Of a stretch of 64,000 bases of DNA, positions 3,001 through 64,000 are shown one piece after another. The notes under the pieces are model-generated. The model was not told the origin of the DNA. It did no database searches and saw nothing but the letters and a program-made list of their open reading frames with translations. The position numbers and the translations under genes are program-made. The DNA lies in contig MU401458.1 of the NCBI GenBank assembly GCA_022579005.1, positions 186,001-250,000 on the forward strand, in the 5' to 3' direction. Source of the DNA: Poronia punctata. Lineage: Eukaryota > Ascomycota > Sordariomycetes > Xylariales > Xylariaceae. Positions within the stretch are counted from its first letter, which is position 1. Every line of letters starts with the position of its first letter.

Positions 3001-3928
3001 TAGAGCACATCCATGTCAGACCCAAGCAGGTACCTCTGTACCACTTCCACTGACTGGGGTTACAGCACAGCTCGTTGGACGATGGGTACATTCCTGGAAG
3101 GAAAGTACCTATCTGCATGCAGCCAGTACTTAGTGGAGTTATTCCCAGAACATTTGCTATCACCTCTGTTCTTGTCTTCTCCCAAGACAACAAAGGAGAC
3201 AAAACCAACCACCACGACAACTGCAGACATTTACGTTGTTGTAAATTCAAATTCTATGTATCCATAGCCCTCGAGGATATAGTGTAATCATTACACACCG
3301 AGATCTGGCGAGGAAGCTGTTTTTACTCAAATACTTTTCTGTCTACAGGTAGAGGAGCGCCTTCGGTTAGGCCTTTGAAAGGATTCCCACGCTTAGGACG
3401 TCTTTTTGCCAGCGGCAGCATTCCCACCCAGGCCAGGATTGCCGCATGCAACCTTCCAGTGCGCTTGTGTTGGTAACACGACAGCTTAGCAGCTATTGTT
3501 ATCTTTGCTTCTTCTTATTTTCGAAGCACGGCAATCAATTCTTTCACCTTCCCAGCGTTGCCCGGTTTTAGCGTCCTTATCTGTCGCAATCCTCTCACCC
3601 CTCATATTTTCGCGAGCCTGCCAGCCTAGAAGGGCCCAACTTGACGAGAGACGTATCCGAGTCCTACCGATCGCAGTAGTCGCCCTCGGGCTGTATGGGT
3701 CGTTGGTGTTATTGTTATTGGCGTTATCCGAATCAAACGATCCAGCCGGCCCAGCTTGTCGAGGACTATACAAAGGGGCGGCGCAGCATTTTAGACTTGC
3801 CAAGAATCTTACCCATCTTGGCCGATAAAGAGTACTTTGCGCTCGACACGCGATTAGAACCACCGATTTTTCCTACCTATACATCGCCTTCGTAGACCGG
3901 GCTGCGGAATTTGGCCAACCTTGCTGTC
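1..3928. other. Intergenic region, no gene recognised
   Basis: Both strands were read in six frames. Only short open frames without recognisable domains were found; the longest is about 140 codons on the minus strand around 1216-1644, and it has no convincing gene structure. The stretch from about 3480 to 3928 is pyrimidine-rich and probably forms the promoter and 5' leader of the gene that starts at 3929. A TACTCGTA octamer is present at 2775-2782 and a TACGAGTA octamer at 370-377. Confidence 0.5.
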
Positions 3929-4987
3929 ATGTATGGGCCGGAGTACACTGCGGGACGGCGGTCTCTCGAACCAGCCCTGCAATATTCCTATTCGAGGACG
4001 CCGACAACTTCATCGGGCCCATACGCAGCCCAACAATACCAACAACAACAATACCCACCGCAAAACGCCGGTCCTATGCCCACCCACTTACAACAGCCCC
4101 AAGCATCTATGGGCCACGCTCGACGGTCGCCTTCGGTTAATACATTTAGCACGACTTCCAGCCACCCGCCACCCGCTGCCTTTCGAACCTCGCCCACCAA
4201 CGATATTCGTCGGAGTACGTCTTCGAGATCCACCACCAATCAACAGACTAGCTACGTTGCTTTTCTTCGTAAACAGAAGGCTACGGTATGGTGTGATCGG
4301 GCACAACCTGAGGATCAACGCCTGCTTGCCCAGCAACGTGCCGCTAAACAGAGAGCCGCTCTGGAGGTCAATGCCCGCTCTTCTATGCAAACGCGCAGCA
4401 CTTCGGGCATCAGTGGTCCTGGCAAGGTGGTGACAAAATTCCGGCATCACGGAAAGCCCGGCGTTGTCGGGTACACGCCCGAGAACAATTATGTCGGTGT
4501 CGGTGGCGTACCGCTGCGGTTAAGCGCGACAGAGGTGGAGGGCGAAGACAGCGAGGATGATGATACTTCGTCAAGGCGGCTGCACCACCGCCGGACGGGG
4601 AGTAGCGGTCGCAGTAGCACGGCTAGTGGCCGGCGCGGTATGCAATACCGGACTTCGGGTAGCATCGGCCAAGGTAGTAAACGCTGGAGTCCGAACGACA
4701 CTCCCGACCGCGGCAGTATGATGGACGAACCTGAATACAGGCCCGGTGACGATCGACTCGAGCGCGCGCAGAGCACGCACAGCGGTAGCAGCGCCGAGCG
4801 GGCAGATGCCTTACCCGAGCTGGGTACATCCGGTGCCGCTAAGCTCGCAAGCAATAGCAAGCTGAATGCGGCCCTCACAAGAGAGAAAAGCGTGAAGAAT
4901 CCGGAAGAGCTGAGGAGAAGAGGTAGTGTCGACGAAAGGACTATGACTCTTACCTCTGGACGACTTTTCATCGCGAACCCAGACTAA
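3929..4987 (+). CDS. Conserved low-complexity fungal protein, function unknown
   Basis: This is an intron-free frame of 352 residues from the ATG at 3929; the frame is open slightly further upstream but only through non-ATG codons. The N-terminal third is rich in Gln, Pro, Ser and Tyr. A compact more ordered segment follows at about residues 105-150 (around SYVAFLRKQKATVWCDRAQ), which looks like the conserved part. After that come a glycine-rich stretch (about 170-200), an acidic cluster (EGEDSEDDD) and a Ser/Arg-rich C-terminal half with many basic patches that resemble phosphorylation sites. No catalytic domain, signal peptide or membrane segment is visible. I do not recognise a named family. 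The composition suggests an intrinsically disordered regulatory or scaffold protein, which is inference. An (ACACGC)n run follows the stop codon. Confidence 0.75.
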   Translation: MYGPEYTAGRRSLEPALQYSYSRTPTTSSGPYAAQQYQQQQYPPQNAGPMPTHLQQPQASMGHARRSPSVNTFSTTSSHPPPAAFRTSPTNDIRRSTSSRSTTNQQTSYVAFLRKQKATVWCDRAQPEDQRLLAQQRAAKQRAALEVNARSSMQTRSTSGISGPGKVVTKFRHHGKPGVVGYTPENNYVGVGGVPLRLSATEVEGEDSEDDDTSSRRLHHRRTGSSGRSSTASGRRGMQYRTSGSIGQGSKRWSPNDTPDRGSMMDEPEYRPGDDRLERAQSTHSGSSAERADALPELGTSGAAKLASNSKLNAALTREKSVKNPEELRRRGSVDERTMTLTSGRLFIANPD

Positions 4988-7584
4988 AACGAAACCGCAC
5001 ACGCACACGCACACGCACCCGGCGCGGCTCTCGATAGCGAACGAATTAATGTTAATTGCCTTGATGTTACCTGCCGATTTAAGACGCCATCCCTACCCTA
5101 CATGAGCCCGATATCTTGCATTTGTCACGAAAATCAAAGTGACGCCGTCTGCTCTCTTATCTGAGTTGAGCAATGGCTTGATATACCTACTCTAGGTCTC
5201 TCGCTCCTCCTTTTCTTATCTCTTTAGTTTTATCCCCCCCTTTGGGGACTGGGTCGGTCGAGGAAAACAAAATGAAGACAAAGGCACATTAGCCAACGCC
5301 ATACGGTCGTTAATCAACGTCACTCGCTTCCATTTTTCCCTTTTTGTTTTCCTATTAGCGCGTTTGCATTGCATTACCAAAACAAATACCCTCACTGCGG
5401 TTTCTACTTTACGACTTCTCCTTTTTACTAGATCGGAGCATAAGTGTATTCTGAACGGATTGAAAAAAAAACCGGCACATACGAGCTACTAAAACTTAAT
5501 GTGTATGTCTTCTACGGAATGATTAGAACGACGGTAGATAAGGACAGACCCCTCATGGCCAGGGGATGATACCAAGGGAGTTTCCCGGTTGTGAGTTTGC
5601 TCAGCTGAAAATACAGCTTTCTCAATCCAAATAATATGCTTTTCTGGATATCTTGCCTAGGCTTTATGGGCTCGTCTTGACCAAAGTCGGTGTCGTAGCT
5701 GTGATTGTTCTTGTGAAGTTAAGTATCTGTCGCTTCATCTCGTGCTCTATTACTATACGTGGATGATAATATCTACTATGCGCATATTACATAAAGACCT
5801 CTTACAATGTCCTAACTCCCCGGTCTAGAACCAAGTCTCCTGCACGTCGAGCATGACATTAAATTTTATACTTTTCTAAAGGTATGTCGAAACGCGCGTA
5901 GAATGCAGTAACCTACCGAGGTAAAGCCTACGTGGGGTTGCCGTCTAGACCATGACCATGACCATGTCAATGTAAGCATTTCAAAGTTTCAAAAGGCATG
6001 GGCAACGTGGGCATCACACTCCTGTCCAGACATATATTTACTGTGTTGGAAGTTGTTTATAGGCCAAACCAGGCTTCCCGTTTCCTTGTATGTATGAACC
6101 TTATACCCATGTTTTTCCCCCTTCTCCTCGGGCCGTCAGGGAAGGGAAGGGAAGGAAGGAAGGAAGGGAGGAAGGGGGGATATATACGAGTAAAAATGGG
6201 CATGGATATGGGCATCTTTTTGTGATAAAAATTTAATTCCACGGCATGTCGTATGTGTATATAGTGGTGTATGTGTATATATATATGTGTAACCCATAGG
6301 GTGAGGATTTGAAATTTGAAATTTGAAATCACGGGGATATGGTTGTTTGGATGTCGGGATGTATACTGTTTGGAGTTTTTCTTTTTTTCTTTTTGCAGGC
6401 ACTGATACTGGTATACTTGTAACATATCCTAGTCCCGGATTCCCGGTGCATAAGTTCCTGAAGTAAGTAAGTAGGTTAAGTAGGTGAACGTTGAAAGATA
6501 CATACCTACTCCCCCTTTTATTCTCATCCCCCTTGGTAATAAGAGGCGGGTTTTAAAGCTCTACTTATATAGATAGGTGATAGGTAAGATGTACCTACCT
6601 ACCTACCTGCTGAATCCGGGACATTGTATATATTAGGTAGTAGAGAATATTTCTCGGCTTTTGTAATTATACAAGTTGTCTTTTTGAATGTTGTCGGCTT
6701 ATACAGACGCAATTATCTATACTAGGTACTTACGACTCCGAGTACACCCTGGTAACAGGTTTAAGTTGCAAATACCTATTTAACCTAGGATATCGTAGTA
6801 AGAATTAGGACGTATAAAAACAAGGATAAATTACGTGCTGTGCGTACAAGACTAAGAATATAAATTCGTTGACTTGTCGCTTACAATATTTCCCATGTCC
6901 TTGTGTGTATATATATACTATAAATATGTCTGCCGGTCAACTGTTATGTTATGAGAGATAGGAAAAATCCGTATTTAGCGGGACGCCGCATGAAAATGTG
7001 GCTGAGGCCCTCCTCGGTTGATATCGGAAGTTGTTTTTACCGAATCCCGTAGTCTAGTTCCGGCCGGAAGAGGATTTCTCCCGGACTATCGGGCGTTGGT
7101 TGCGGGGGCCGGAGCTATTGGGTACGTCAAGGCCGGGCGGTTGTTTACGAGTACACGTCGTCCGGGATTTTAACTGTATTTTAATTTAGGTGTCTGCGGT
7201 TTAATACACTGTTGTGTTATGTATTTCTGAGATAGGGGGACAAATATTATACGGGTTCTTGAATCGTCTGATATCTCACATGACGGGCGGTCAAACGTTG
7301 AACTGTGGTGTACAAGAACGAATATAATTTTTATATTTATAAATCGGGTGTTGGTTCGTGATCATGGGTTCATGTCCGGAGGAGATGCCCCGAAGGGTAT
7401 ACACTGGGAACTTTGCCGGAAGAACGTCTCGAATCTTTTAATCTCAGAAGCTGGGCCCATTCGACTCTACCAAAAATATCTAGTGACGCTATGATCCTAT
7501 TTCAACCTGAAAAGGTCTGACAGATCGTTATTCCCCGCAATGGTCGTCTTCTGTTTTATTTGCCCATTCGGATAGTCGTCAAAC
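4988..7584. other. Intergenic region with simple repeats
   Basis: There is no gene with recognisable features. The region holds the 3' flanks of two converging genes (the plus-strand gene ending at 4987 and the minus-strand gene ending at 7585). It contains purine-rich GGAAG repeats near 6135-6178, TA/TG-rich DNA near 6250-6290, a (TACC)n run at 6592-6608 and TACGAGTA octamers at 6185 and 7146. Confidence 0.5.
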
Positions 7585-37822: not shown

Positions 37823-39264
37823 ATGTCTGAGGAATGGGGTGGCATTGAGGACACCATCGAAGACCCCGAGGAGACTCGCGTCCTGTTTTGCGCTCTGGAT
37901 TCTTTCAGGTTGGTACATATTCAGTTTGACTTTTGTTTAATAGAATTCCTCCGTATCCCCTGTTCCGAATGCTATTTCACCAAAACAGCATTGCGTCTTC
38001 AAGTGAGGATGCGTTTGTAGTTCGGGCCGGGTTTATCATCTCCCACTGCTTACCCAAAAAGCCCCATAAACAACTGTCAGCTAACATATCTCATAGCCAA
38101 TATGCCAAAAATGCGCATTTAAACTGTACGCACTTCCGGAGGCAGGCGTTCTACGCCATGCCTCAGGCACACTGGCAGATGCTCGCAGCGCCACCGTTCA
38201 ACTATCTAGACACGTTGAACCGGGTAGATGACGCGATAGACAGCAATGCCGAGTTAGCCCGCAATATTCTCAAATGCGGTCTGCGCTCCTTCGTAGCCAC
38301 AGCACCCGACCAGGAGGCTGAGATGCCCGTCGAGTGGTCCGGCATCGCCAAGTACAGCGACATGGATAGGGCGCGTAGTACGCTCCGCCAATTCTACCGT
38401 GATTGGTCAGCCGAGGGTGTCGTTGAGCGGGAGGCTTGCTATGGCCCTGTATATAAAGCGTTAGAGGCCGAGAAGGCCCGGAGGTCCTCGAGCTTGAGCA
38501 ACGGCGAGGCGGTTGCAGCTGAGCAGCCTCTTCAGGTATTGGTTCCCGGTGCCGGTCTCGGCCGTCTTGTCTTCGATCTCTGCCGTCTCGGGTACGAGAG
38601 TGAGGGTAACGAGATATCCTACCACCAGCTCCTCGCGTCGTCCTACATCCTAAATTCGTGCGAGCGTGCGGGCCAGCACACCCTCTACCCCTGGATCCAC
38701 ACCTTCTCGAACCACCTCAGCCGCGAAGATCAGTTCAAGTCATACGGCGTGCCGGACATACACCCGCAGCAGGCGCTAATAGAGGCGGCGAAGACGAGCA
38801 AGATCGGCACGATGCAGATGTGCGCGGCCGATTTCCTCTGTCTGTATGGGGACGCCGCGCACGCGGATAAATACGACGCCGTGGCTGCCGTATTCTTCCT
38901 AGACACGGCGCCGAACCTGATCCGATATCTAGAGGTGGTCAGACATTGTCTGAAACCAGGCGGCATCCTAATCAACGTCGGTCCGCTACTCTGGCATTGG
39001 GAAGACAAGGTGGCGGACAATCACGGCTATGATGGCGACGCCGACCACGACGAGAACAACTCCCTCGGCATCGCAGACCCGGGTAGCTTCGAACTCACGG
39101 ACGACGAAGTCATCACACTCGTCGAGAAGCTGGGCTTCGTGGTCGAGACTAGGCAATCGGGTCTTACTGCCCCTTATATGCAAGACCCACAGAGCATGTT
39201 GCAAACCGTGTATCGCGCCAGCCATTGGATAGCGCGGAAGCCGGAGACATCCTCTCACGAATAG
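37823..39264 (+). CDS. N2227/carnosine N-methyltransferase-like protein
   Basis: Two exons, 37823-37908 and 38097-39264, give 417 residues; the 188-base intron ends after a CTAAC branch site. The N-terminus has the family segment SFSQYAKNAHLN then FRRQAFYAMPQAHW. SAM-binding motif I is VLVPGAGLGRL at residues 176-186. It is followed by the N2227 hallmark GNEISYHQLLASSYIL, the acidic motif AVFFLDTAPNLIRYLEVV and post-motif KPGGILINVGPLLWHW. These are the defining features of the CARNMT1/YNL092W family, which methylates carnosine-like histidine dipeptides to anserine in animals and yeast. Substrate in filamentous fungi is not established. A short acidic insert (DGDADHDENN) lies after the WHWED segment, as is usual in the family. 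Confidence 0.92.
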
Positions 39265-53912: not shown

Positions 53913-54036
53913 GGGGGGGGGGGGGGGGGGGGGGGCACAAAAAAAAAAAAATAAAGGTAAAATTAAAGAAAAGGGTGATAATTAACAAGAGGNNNNNNNN
54001 NNCCCCGCGCCCGCCCCCCCCCCGCCCGCCCGCCCG

Positions 54037-57006: not shown

Positions 57007-57869
57007 GTGGGGAGAGTGGTTGTATTGTTTTGTTTTGTTTTGTACTTGTACACTTTGGCTTTTCTGCCATGGTTTTGGCTTGAGATACTATTGTTGTTAT
57101 TTTTACTTGCACCGTCTAAGACATGTCATGATTTATTGTTTTGAATCAAGTGGTTGAGTTTCCATAACATCCCGGGGGAATTACAAAAGTTATTCTCTCC
57201 GCCTCTGTCATTGACCGAGAGTGTAAGCTGAAACATCGGCACACCATGTAGAAAATGAGAAATGTAAAAGATCAGCTGTGATAACCCGGGAGAAAATGAT
57301 GTTGACATTGCCGCGAGGAACTACTTCTTCTGTCCCCTAATCTACCTTGTTATATTGTTCGTCTTTGCCGCGTTCAACATGTTGCCCTTGCCGTCTTACC
57401 TCAGTTATGCACTCCACAAATCTGGGGTGTATCCGCTCGGTTTCAATCCTGTTAGTCTAATTAGGTCGAATGTCAGTGAGATGCGGTAACAATCAAGATT
57501 CACGTGTTTAAAAAGTAGGGGAAAGGAGGGAGATCGGCAGATGGATTTGTCGTGCCACTGCCACGTGCGGCACAGACCAATAAGAACAGCCAATATTCAA
57601 AACATCGAAACCAACAACCAACGACATGCATTCAGACCAGCTAAAGTTACCAAATATATTCTTTCACCTTTGATAACTTGATTGTAACCCTTGTGTCCTG
57701 TTGGAATTCATTCTTTGTCTTGGCATACGTAGGTCAATCGTGTATACTAGTAATACAATATATATGTTATTGTCAAATCCACCCAGTCTTTCCACTTTGA
57801 ACATGTCCCTCCCTCTCCCCCATATTCCATTTCAACACGTAACTTGTAAAATCCCTGATACGTTCGACA
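57007..57869. other. Intergenic region
   Basis: 3' flank of the small cysteine-rich gene and promoter side of the next gene. GTTTT repeats occur at 57026-57044. No coding features recognised. Confidence 0.45.
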
Positions 57870-58664
57870 ATGAAGCTGTCCTTGATCCCCATCGCCGCAG
57901 CCCTAACGACACACTCGGCCTTGGCCTGGGATATATCAAAGGAGCACAAGTGCAATAGCGAAGAGCTCTGCCTCCAATCCTTCCTCTGGTGTCCTCCTTC
58001 TCATAACGGAGAGAGCTGTACATATCCTCCCGATGCTTACCCTCTAAAGCCACCTTCACATGGCGGAATCAACCCGGCCCTACTCCTATCCGGCAAATCA
58101 TACAATATCGCTTGGAAAAAAACTCAACATAGGGATGACAGTCGTGTACGAGTGCAGTGGAAGATGCCCGGAGGCTTCTCTTGGGAAACCAGTATGTCTG
58201 TCTCTTCTCATCGTAGGGTACCAAGAACTTAGCAGACGGGCTGACTGGGTAGTTTAGATACGACAAAAACCGAATTCGTCCTAGAGCCAGGTAAAATCCT
58301 CGACTCGTTCCCAACAGCGCAATATCCCAACGTCAGCAAGGAAGAGGCCTGGCACTCCGTCACGCAGGGCGTCACCAACGTCATCACCATCACCTTCGCC
58401 TCGGACGGGGATATCCCCGAGGGACCGTGGGATACGTCGCAACAGTTCGTTGTGCAGTCGTCATGGGTAGAGCAATACCTGAGCACTCAGGCGACAATGA
58501 CGCGAAAGGAGACATACGATAAGTGGAAGTTGGGAGTCGGCGTCGGCGTCGGAGTCGGTGTTCCCTTGCTGCTCGCTTTGACTGCCCTTGTTACTCGATT
58601 GGTTGTGAAGAGGGCGAATAATAACAGACCTGTAAATGATGGTAAACTGTCCGCTACGGGATGA
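57870..58664 (+). CDS. Secreted single-pass membrane protein of unknown function
   Basis: Two exons, 57870-58191 and 58258-58664, give 242 residues. Residues 1-19 are a signal peptide (MKLSLIPIAAALTTHSALA). The outer domain of about 175 residues has four cysteines near its start, a Pro-rich stretch and an alternating hydrophobic pattern (SYNIAWKKT, VRVQWKMPGG, NVITITFASDG) suggesting a beta-sandwich. A hydrophobic helix with a Gly-Val repeat (LGVGVGVGVGVPLLLALTAL) follows at about 198-222, then a basic cytoplasmic tail. This resembles many fungal surface proteins with an Ig-like outer domain, but no family is recognised. Confidence 0.75.
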
Positions 58665-60915: not shown

Positions 60916-61509
60916 TTATTCCTCACGCTTGCCCCAAGCGCCCTCGCGATAGGCAGCATCAGCTTCCACGTCCCGCTTTCCCCAGGCACCCTCGCGATAG
61001 GCAGCATCAGCCTCGACATCACGCTTGCCCCAGGCTCCTTCACGGTAAGCGGCGTCGGCCTCGACATCACGCTTGCCCCAGGCTCCTTCACGGTAAGCGG
61101 CGTCGGCCTCGACATCACGCTTACCCCAGGCACCTTCGCGGTAAGCGGCGTCGGCCTCGACATCACGCTTGCCCCAGGCTCCTTCACGGTAAGCGGCGTC
61201 GGCCTCGACATCACGCTTACCCCAGGCACCTTCGCGGTAAGCGGCGTCGGCCTCGACATCACGCTTGCCCCAGGCTCCTTCACGGTAAGCGGCGTCGGCC
61301 TCGACATCACGCTTACCCCAGGCGCCCTCTCTGTAGGCAGCATCGGCTTCTACGCCGCGCTTACCCCAAGCGCCCTCTCTATAGGCGGCATCAGCTTCAA
61401 CATCCCGCTTACCCCAAGCACCCTCGCGATAGGCGGCGTCTTGAGGTGCAGTAGGGGCAGCAATAACAGTTGAAGCGCAAGCAAGCGCGGCGAAGGCGAA
61501 GAATCTCAT
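60916..61509 (-). CDS. Secreted Kex2-processed repeat peptide precursor (dikaritin-type RiPP candidate)
   Basis: This single-exon gene encodes 197 residues. A signal peptide (MRFFAFAALACASTVIA) is followed by six residues and then eleven tandem copies of the 16-residue unit DAAYREGAWGKRDVEA; the last copy ends in KREE. Each unit ends its core in Lys-Arg, the Kex2 cleavage site. After each cut the next peptide begins D-V-E-A-D-A, resembling the X-Ala dipeptide spacers that Ste13-type peptidases trim, leaving a core near AYREGAWG. The core is identical in all copies; the only amino-acid change is one Gly for Asp in a spacer. Signal peptide, repeats, KR sites and a Tyr-containing core are the marks of UstA-type precursors, and the head-to-head neighbour is a UstYa gene. 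The alternative, an alpha-type mating pheromone precursor, is less likely because the core has no Cys and no Pro-Gly turn. Confidence 0.9.
   Translation of the reverse strand: MRFFAFAALACASTVIAAPTAPQDAAYREGAWGKRDVEADAAYREGAWGKRGVEADAAYREGAWGKRDVEADAAYREGAWGKRDVEADAAYREGAWGKRDVEADAAYREGAWGKRDVEADAAYREGAWGKRDVEADAAYREGAWGKRDVEADAAYREGAWGKRDVEADAAYREGAWGKRDVEADAAYREGAWGKREE
60919..61440 (-). repeat. Eleven tandem 48-bp coding repeats
   Basis: Repeats 4-9 counted from the N-terminus consist of only two sequence versions, arranged A-B-A-B-A-A, so that 96-bp B-A pairs are duplicated. Repeats 1-3 and 10-11 differ from these and from each other at many third positions. The array therefore grew recently in its centre while its edges are old. 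Confidence 0.93.
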
Positions 61510-62305
61510 GATGATGATGGTGGTGGTGGCGGTGTATATTGTATTTGCTTGACGTGGGGGTAAGTAATCGAACTGCTCCGTGAAGGAAAAACTCAGGTTT
61601 CAAGACTTGGGGATAGCAAATAAGAGAACGGGCTATAGAATGTGTGTTTGTTGTTGTTGTTGTTGTTGTTGCCCGAGTTTTTACCAGACAGGAAGACCTC
61701 CCCCCCTTTTATAGACAAATCTTCTCCCGTTTACAAGTCGAACCCAAAGAGTCCATCATCCCATCACTTTTTCTTTATTTTACCCCACGTTACCTATGAT
61801 GTCTCTGTGTCTGTGCCTCTTGTCTCGGACTCAACCCCTCTCCCCCTCTATCTCCCCCAAGAATCTTTCTGTATCTAGCTCTCACCAAAACTTCAGGGTA
61901 TCTCATCCTTGGCTCCATTTGCTTTTATATAGCTTCCTATTTCGTCCCTTGGCTTAACCCTTTCCCCTTTTCCCCCCTTCCCCCTCTCCCACGCCTAGAC
62001 TTAACAAACCCCCGTCAAATTGCCTTGTTTTACGATAAGCCGCATACTTCGTATCACCGCGGAAGAAACGGTTTCCACAAATTTCCTTCTGTCGTCTATC
62101 GGTAAGGTCGTCATCATGGACTTTGAACTAAACTAGGTCATATTTTCCGGGGAAAGAAAGATCCATGAGACAGACTCGCGCCCATAACCGACTATTTTCT
62201 GTTCTTTTCTTTTCTTTTACTTTCCACTATTTCTTTAAACTATTCTTTCCGTAAAAGAAAACAACGTAGAAAGTGAATCGTTCTGCTCCTCTTTTCAAAC
62301 CAAAT
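61510..62305. promoter_or_regulatory. Bidirectional promoter region of the RiPP precursor and UstYa genes
   Basis: The two genes start 796 bases apart and face away from each other. On the minus strand TATA boxes are visible at 61713-61706 (TATAAAAG) and 61931-61922 (ATATAAAAG core). The closer one lies about 200 bases upstream of the precursor ATG. A (TTG)n run lies at 61648-61671, within the likely precursor leader. The plus-strand side before 62306 is pyrimidine-rich (TTTTC runs at 62195-62225), as is common in strong fungal promoters. A shared regulatory region would allow co-expression. Confidence 0.6.
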
Positions 62306-62361
62306 ATGGCGGATGTTCTAAGCGAACCACTAATCGAAAAAGAAGAGGGCATCGTCGGACG

Positions 62362-62404
<43 letters not shown>

Positions 62405-63367
62405 CGACGACGAGGACGGAGAACCAATACCTCATGGTTCAAGCGAAATATAGGTTTCATATCTCTTCAAGCCGTCACCTTGGGCCTCATACCCGCTTCA
62501 TATTTCCTAGGATATCACCAAGGAGAAAAACATCTCCCTAAACTACCAACAGATGGTATGTTTCCGTTTCCGTTTTCGGTTTTTCTTTTTTTCGTTTTCG
62601 TTTCTTTTAGCTCCACCCCCCAAAATCCATCACAGCACATTTCTTTCTTTCTTTCTAACTCCCCTTAAATCAACACAGCGGTCTCCAGATCAGGTTACAA
62701 ACTCACGCTGAAACCCCTCGACGACGAATTCGAGGTGCGGGACCCGGAAAACCTCAAATTCAAAGGTCCCCCGCGTCCCGAGCTAGACGAAGCATGGGAT
62801 TCGCTGATATCACACATGAACATCCGCGTACGACCGCACGAGGCGCGCGAGTCGAACTATACCTCTGTCACTTTAAATGACGGCTCGGGCGATATGACGG
62901 GGATGCCGGCCGTGTTCCACAGTCTGCATTGTCTCAAGACGCTGCGACGGATCCAGTTCCCGGAATATTATCCCGAGGATTGGGAGAGGTATAAGCCGCC
63001 TGTTGAGGGGGGGATCAGTGATCATGTTGATCATTGTATTGATAAGTGAGTAACCAACCACATGCCTCTTCCGTTATTGTTCTGGATTGGACCGGACTGG
63101 ACTGGACTAACTCTCATTCCTCCAAGTATCCGTCAAGCCATCATGTGTCAAGGAGACCTAGCGCTATACACCAATAAATGGATACCAGGAAGAGCCAAGC
63201 CTTTCCCTCTGCCCCCTTCGAACCATATCTGTATCGATTGGGACCATATGATGAATTGGGCTTCTGGGCGAAGCTATAGGCTGGAAGATAGATTACTTCA
63301 GAATCCAACATTAGGTGAGATCGTAAAAGCCATGAAGGCCATGTTTTCGATGAGTAAAGAAAGCTAA
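62306..63367 (+). CDS. UstYa-like (DUF3328) oxidative modification protein
   Basis: Three exons (62306-62555, 62679-63045, 63127-63367) give 285 residues. The cytoplasmic N-terminus contains 14 consecutive Gln codons (all CAA) followed by an Arg-rich patch. One membrane helix spans about residues 48-70. The catalytic-type region carries both family motifs, H164-S-L-H-C168 and H199-V-D-H-C203, the HxxHC pair expected to bind copper, and the downstream segment NIRQAIMCQGDLALY followed by a final W-rich part that are also typical. UstYa/UstYb proteins carry out oxidative cyclisation of ribosomal peptides in ustiloxin, asperipin, phomopsin and victorin biosynthesis. Its position next to the repeat precursor makes that peptide the probable substrate. 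The poly-Gln tract is unusual for the family. Confidence 0.92.
62363..62404 (+). repeat. (CAA)14 tract encoding poly-Gln
   Basis: Fourteen identical CAA codons lie in the cytoplasmic N-terminus of the UstYa-like protein. A pure triplet run of this kind is expected to vary in length between strains. Confidence 0.97.
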
Positions 63368-64000
63368 CCTTAAGTACATAGATACCCCGTGGGACCCGAG
63401 TACGTAAAGTAAGTAGTCAGGTTGTTCCTTGTATAATAGGGAAAATGGTAAAGGGTCGGGGGTGGTTCATTGGTCAAAGCCTTTCTTGACTGTTTATCAA
63501 GGTTTAATGAGGATAGCTTGATAGTATGAAGACTAGTCCCTGATACCTAGCCAACATCGTGATGGTGAAATAAGCATATTGTAGAAAAGTAAACGCTCGT
63601 AGCTAATCGCAGGACCTGGCTTGATGAAGGACGTAGTAAACATGCGAGCAGGCTTGGACATTACGTGTATCTAGACCGAAAGCGTTATAAGTTACCAGCC
63701 TAAATCTACTGCCCCATAGTTTGCTTACCTCGATTACAGTGGAATGCCATCGTGTGCGATGCTAGATCCCCACTCGTAAACCAGATGCGCGTTTAAGGTC
63801 CGTCCCAACTTCGATCTGCTGTAGTCATGTGTAATCTGATGAGGGGAAAAACCCCGAGGCCCTCGCACGTCTTCTCCTGTCCCCTCACCAACAGGATGAG
63901 ATTCCCTGTTACCCCACGAACCAATCGACAACAAACGATCCAATCTTAGTTTTCGTGTATCGGTCAGACTTCCTGGCAAGTCCGGGCTACTTTGTATCTT
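63368..64000. other. Intergenic region to the window end
   Basis: No gene recognised in the last 630 bases. A minus-strand frame at 63979-63734 has no domain features. Confidence 0.45.

Follow-up and report, generated by a model that had tools for sequence, protein, structure and literature searches.

A repeat precursor with the core AYREGAWG divergent from a UstYa gene in Poronia punctata: a probable minimal dikaritin-like pair

The 45.05 Mb assembly of Poronia punctata comprises 573 contigs, and the window analysed here, a stretch of 64,000 nucleotides, corresponds to positions 186001-250000 of one of them (C5). On its reverse strand, an unspliced gene (60916-61509) encodes a Kex2-type repeat protein of 197 aa, as read from the open reading frame and its translation. 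The N-terminus reads MRFFAFAALACASTVIAAP, and its residues 1-18 (61456-61509) form a likely signal peptide, recognized by eye from an Arg, a hydrophobic run and terminal small residues. It is followed by an array (60925-61434) of eleven AYREGAWG-KR units with a period of 16 residues (48 nt), all 11 of which end with KR; a KEP is defined by at least three near-identical repeats split by Kex2 dibasic sites, and eleven are present here. We therefore recovered both the signal-peptide-like start and the eleven AYREGAWGKR segments reported in a preliminary description of this DNA. The spacer that it gave, DVEADA, is that of nine of the ten spacers, the remaining one being GVEADA. When searched as a degenerate DNA pattern, AYREGAWGKR has 11 matches in the 45-Mb assembly, all located in the array, and the backward control has none.

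The DNA of the 30-nt core varies at 9 of its 30 positions among the eleven units, leaving the protein unaltered. As the copies do not vary independently of one another, the cores of units 4-9 falling into two types, the corresponding figures serve as a description and not as a test statistic: over the 55 unit pairs, the core has a pS of 0.65 and a replacement-site difference of 0.014, the latter produced by path counting between CGN and AGA Arg codons, all 11 units being translated alike, while the ten spacers have a silent difference of 0.69 and a replacement difference of 0.014, with one real replacement. Core and spacer are thus under roughly equal constraint within the precursor gene. Since the silent sites diverge widely and the cores are translated identically, the repeat is more than a chance array, and the peptide is under selection.

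The second gene, on the forward strand, encodes a UstYa-family protein, and 796 bp (61510-62305) separate the two divergent start codons. We assigned its splice sites by eye from the sequence alone. Exon 1 (62306-62555) carries a poly-Gln tract and a hydrophobic stretch, also seen by eye, that is probably membrane-spanning; exon 2 (62679-63045) carries both HxxHC motifs, HSLHC (62918-62932) and HVDHC (63023-63037); exon 3 (63127-63314) is followed by exon 4 (63382-63407), which encodes DTPWDPST and the stop. Besides the introns 62556-62678 and 63046-63126, the gene most likely has a third one, 63315-63381, and then encodes 276 aa; if this last intron is unused, exon 3 continues to a stop at 63367 (286 aa). 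The four-exon form is the most likely because the closest relative, P0002, also ends with DTPWDPST. Hence, the end of the locus proposed earlier, 63367, is the read-through stop, and the gene most likely ends at 63407. The protein matches the profile PF11807, with exon 2 alone at 7e-21 and two stretches at 79.7 and 38.9 bits, so that the divergent UstYa gene with both motifs, about 0.8 kb from the precursor, is present as first described. A UstYa-family gene beside a KEP precursor and a protein with two HxxHC motifs are both expected of a dikaritin locus; at least two such motifs are also found in 54 of the 61 UstYa relatives that we collected. No CGG...CCG site (spacing up to 11) occurs in the 796-bp intergenic stretch. 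A TTG run lies at 61648-61671, upstream of the precursor gene, and a CAA/TTG repeat at 62363-62405 corresponds to the poly-Gln tract of the UstYa N-terminus, which is absent from P0002.

The best named relatives of the UstYa protein come from Xylariaceae sp. FL0594 (85% identity), Thozetella sp. PMI_491 (62%) and Cephalotrichum gorgonifer (60%), i.e., the relatives P0002-P0004. We built a tree of 55 rows, i.e., the locus protein and the 54 of the 61 relatives that reach at least 190 aa, the seven shorter ones being dropped. In this tree, the locus protein pairs with P0002 (support 100/99) and belongs to a wider group that also includes P0003, P0004 and P0005 (100/98); the place of P0010 in it is less sure (94/77). 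A neighbouring group of six rows, whose genera we take to be Leotiomycetes, adjoins this group.

To the left of the pair lie genes for a phosphatidylserine decarboxylase, a PP2A B56 subunit, a TFIIIC subunit, a short-chain dehydrogenase and a ubiquitin-like protein. The only methyltransferase in the open reading frames scanned is a carnosine-methyltransferase-like gene (37930-39261) that sits among housekeeping-type genes, 22 kb leftwards of the pair; a further, small gene (57843-58661) has a weak Mid2-like match. An assembly gap, written as ten N (53993-54002), is flanked by C- and G-rich simple repeats. To the right of the window, at about 66.9-69.2 kb (stretch L009, about 3400-5700) and about 3.5 kb away from the pair, a spliced gene looks Zn2Cys6-like by eye, and its pieces have no Pfam match; placed next to the UstYa gene, it could be a pathway regulator. 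Between 63.4 and 83.8 kb, we counted 25 open reading frames of at least 100 aa and ran 23 of them against Pfam (one as a piece), a screen that short or much-split genes could escape; the sole match at E<=0.01, near 83 kb, is to a phosphatidylethanolamine-binding-type domain, and next comes a ribosomal L4 gene, near 85 kb. Tyrosinase has 20 matches genome-wide and S41 peptidase two, and none of either falls on this contig. The additional cluster genes to be looked for beyond base 64000 are thus reduced to the possible zinc-finger regulator, and the cluster has no accessory tyrosinase or S41 peptidase match, a point against a dikaritin-like pair; later dikaritin definitions, as worded in the available text of PMC12048977, do not require these enzymes.

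Is the proximity of the two genes more than chance? Grouped by eye, the 27 UstYa profile matches of the genome form 20 genes spread over 15 contigs, with one gene on contig C5. Taking 20 UstYa genes in 45 Mb and a precursor start at most 796 bp from a UstYa start, the probability of a chance adjacency is about 0.0007 for one precursor and about 0.004 for 5.25 precursors per genome, the Ascomycota mean in the available part of PMC7329392. We also scanned the unspliced frames within 5-8 kb around the UstYa genes of the 14 other contigs (15 stretches) for a four-residue tail that recurs identically at least three times ahead of KR, RR or KK. Two other contigs, C37 and C197, hold a repeat precursor near a UstYa gene, which means that precursor and UstYa gene co-occur on at least 3 of 15 contigs, this count being a lower bound. 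The side-by-side occurrence of a Kex2-type repeat precursor and a UstYa gene, as initially proposed, is borne out, and this genome holds two further such pairs. The precursor on C37 (stretch L046, 4186-4734) has five units, all with a stretch that contains Cys and with the ending YAII-KR, and lies about 1.2 kb from its UstYa gene. That on C197 (stretch L049, 3626-3919) has units ending with SEGF-RR and devoid of Tyr, lies between two UstYa genes, and would have its signal peptide in an upstream exon.

The catalogue of PMC7329392, in its available text, comprises 7,878 precursors (838 types and 2,560 stand-alone), of which 1,758 have a UstYa-type gene at a distance of up to 15 genes, the adjacent position being the commonest. 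Having such a neighbour is thus informative, as 6,120 of the 7,878 lack one. Among the repeats with a UstYa-type gene nearby, 65.6% contain Tyr, which is thus not universal, and 20.5% contain Trp (same source). UstYa proteins also serve non-ribosomal clusters, according to the part of PMC12048977 at hand, and this counts against the dikaritin-like reading.

Relatives of the precursor were sought in two ways. A search with the whole precursor covered lengths of about 108-345 aa, the best 7,997 candidates by shared words being scored; a search with a shortened query covered about 47-149 aa, with 3,455 candidates and E up to 10. The first gave a single protein, P0001 (E 2.6e-5, source 'merc'), which we did not retain and regard as a case of convergence, since by eye it shares mainly WGKRDVE-like words. 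The shortened query yielded three relatives, P0063-P0065 (sources jgi and ena), on contigs of 503-3,593 bases (2.6 kb for P0063 and 3.6 kb for P0064) that are probably metagenomic. P0063 (E 3.3e-14, 85 aa) looks complete, with three units and its own signal-peptide-like start; P0064 (E 8.8e-5) and P0065 (E 3.5e-3) are partial. As in our precursor, the starts of P0063 and P0065 are signal-like by eye. These sequences show that the precursor belongs to a wider family. Among the named fungal genomes, no precursor was found in the candidates scored, FL0594 (the source of the 85% UstYa relative) included, where short genes are possibly unannotated. Prokaryotic and viral sequences gave 33 and 11 pattern-matching stretches, respectively, none of which was confirmed.

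Of the six complete units of the relatives, all with KR behind them, two read LLREGAWG, two AYREGAWG, one LYRGGAWG and one IFREGAWG. IFREGAWG opens P0064, so that its first residues may stem from a wrong start. R, G, A, W and G are kept in 6/6 units (R-x-G-A-W-G-KR), and V-E-ADA or V-K-ADA recurs upstream of the core. On the contrary, the second core position, Tyr in 11/11 units of our array, is Y in three of the six, L in two and F in one. The core Tyr expected to be conserved in a dikaritin is therefore replaced in half of the relatives' complete units, and the suggestion that an invariant Tyr may be cross-linked fails, whereas the invariant Trp of the same suggestion is present in all six.

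The locus is, in our view, probably a minimal dikaritin-like pair. The available parts of the literature (PMC7329392, PMC6339444 and PMC12048977, together with PMC10512285, PMC8403587, PMC7099791 and PMC9233826) lead us to think that it most probably works as dikaritin pairs of the asperipin-2a type do. The cross-linked product is a prediction and the Tyr is not conserved in relatives, so that we do not claim membership of the dikaritins. We infer that the UstYa protein acts on the precursor, and likewise the product and the role of the peptide. Judging from its N-terminus, the precursor would enter the secretory pathway, where Kex2 would cleave after every Lys-Arg; the genome has one match to a Kex2-type P domain and two DPPIV-type matches. 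A Kex1-like carboxypeptidase would then strip KR, leaving mostly copies of the 14-mer DVEADAAYREGAWG, and the divergent, probably membrane-anchored UstYa protein would oxidise the core. The enzyme of C-terminal amidation, for which Gly-Lys-Arg would be suited, was sought with Cu2_monoox_C, which has no match in the genome, its controls likewise giving none.

The preliminary description assumed that X-Ala trimming would release exactly AYREGAWG. This is doubtful because X-Ala removal starting at the Kex2-made end would run into DV at this locus and into EL/VV, VV or PQ/VE in the relatives. Moreover, as V[E/K]ADA recurs in the relatives, the residues preceding the core probably serve for recognition or remain in the product, rather than being a filler that dipeptidyl trimming takes away. 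Every relative found retains Arg, Ala, Trp and both Gly, which does not hold for Tyr; hence, the Trp or a neighbouring carbon is a likelier modification site than the Tyr. We tentatively propose, as a possibility that we would not yet favour, that the UstYa enzyme targets Trp (or R-x-G-A-W-G carbons) and not Tyr, and that this two-gene locus makes a Tyr-independent cross-linked or dehydro peptide of an RxGAWG family present in several fungi. A constant Trp beside a replaceable Tyr puts a sharp question to UstYa chemistry, and it is the sole potentially surprising point of this locus; it speaks either against an ether link through Tyr or in favour of a linear peptide.

This linear peptide, i.e., an unmodified secreted hormone or outward signal whose UstYa neighbour is there by chance or has another substrate, is the strongest competitor of the dikaritin-like pair, although we consider it unlikely. 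The locus spacer consists partly of Ste13-like dipeptides, EA and DA, and sites of this type characterise linear signalling peptides in the available text of PMC6339444, which ties X-Ala spacers to hormones and describes them as absent from dikaritin precursors. The same text holds the conserved Tyr to be essential for the known cyclisations, and the Tyr that is cross-linked in several known dikaritins is not conserved in our relatives; for this core, the pairing of precursor and UstYa gene is moreover, among the sequences compared, seen at this locus alone. However, the dipeptides do not form a clean series: it opens with DV here, and EL/VV or PQ/VE interrupt it in the relatives. The chance adjacency of about 0.004 and the large majority of catalogued precursors without a UstYa-type neighbour (6,120/7,878 in the available text of PMC7329392) also speak against an incidental neighbour.

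That the precursor would be the alpha-type mating pheromone of this fungus is very improbable. The layout of the precursor is alike and the classical gene was not located: a genome-wide scan for C-x3-G-x2-C-W-K-R, the classical alpha-pheromone motif, gave 0 matches, perhaps because this fungus has another motif or because its gene is absent from the assembly. A loose form of the pattern gave 5 matches against 6 for the backward control, none of them in a repeat precursor. On the other hand, the core has neither the Cys pair nor PYGxPxG, the known core motifs of the two pheromone types treated in the available text of PMC6339444, and a UstYa-type gene lies within 15 genes of only 3 of 216 filamentous-fungus pheromone precursors (213 thus lacking one) and of 0 of 227 yeast ones in that of PMC7329392. 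As for a functionless repeat expansion or a misread frame, tandem arrays do arise easily and the cores of units 4-9 copy two types, but the large silent differences under a constant protein, and P0063 with a signal-peptide-like start of its own, make it scarcely credible.

We consider the core as new and its kind as well known. The core was rightly regarded as distinct, the whole string AYREGAWG having no match in a text search of the literature (supplementary tables excepted); among the matches listed for shorter pieces, only 'ayreg' appears, apparently inside ordinary text. RxGAWG was likewise not met in the main text of PMC7329392 and PMC6339444 as available, supplementary tables and figures excepted, and an earlier listing of the core is possible. 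To speak of a new family is too strong, as the 1,758 precursors with a UstYa-type gene nearby in the catalogue of PMC7329392 (available text) already represent pairs of this kind, against no more than five dikaritins described up to the end of 2022 according to the available part of PMC10512285.

The locus agrees with the published definition of a KEP, the repeats and Kex2 sites being tested here and the signal peptide judged by eye. It shares the layout and the partly X-Ala spacers of alpha-type pheromone precursors and differs from them by its core and its UstYa neighbour. With ustiloxin, phomopsin and victorin, it has in common a signal peptide (a likely one here), many Kex2-separated cores and UstYa-type proteins (PMC12048977, PMC10512285 and PMC9233826, in their available parts); it differs by its core and by a contig with one UstYa gene and no tyrosinase or S41 match. 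The asperipin-2a locus of Aspergillus flavus similarly combines a Kex2-site repeat precursor with a single UstYa-type gene and no cluster peptidase (PMC7329392 and PMC12048977, in their available parts). Its core is a different one, and it is the relatives of the present locus that do not keep the Tyr. The asperipin cluster has further genes, i.e., a reductase and a transporter. By its unusual simplicity, a two-gene locus with one uniform core would lend itself to asking how a UstYa protein acts by itself.
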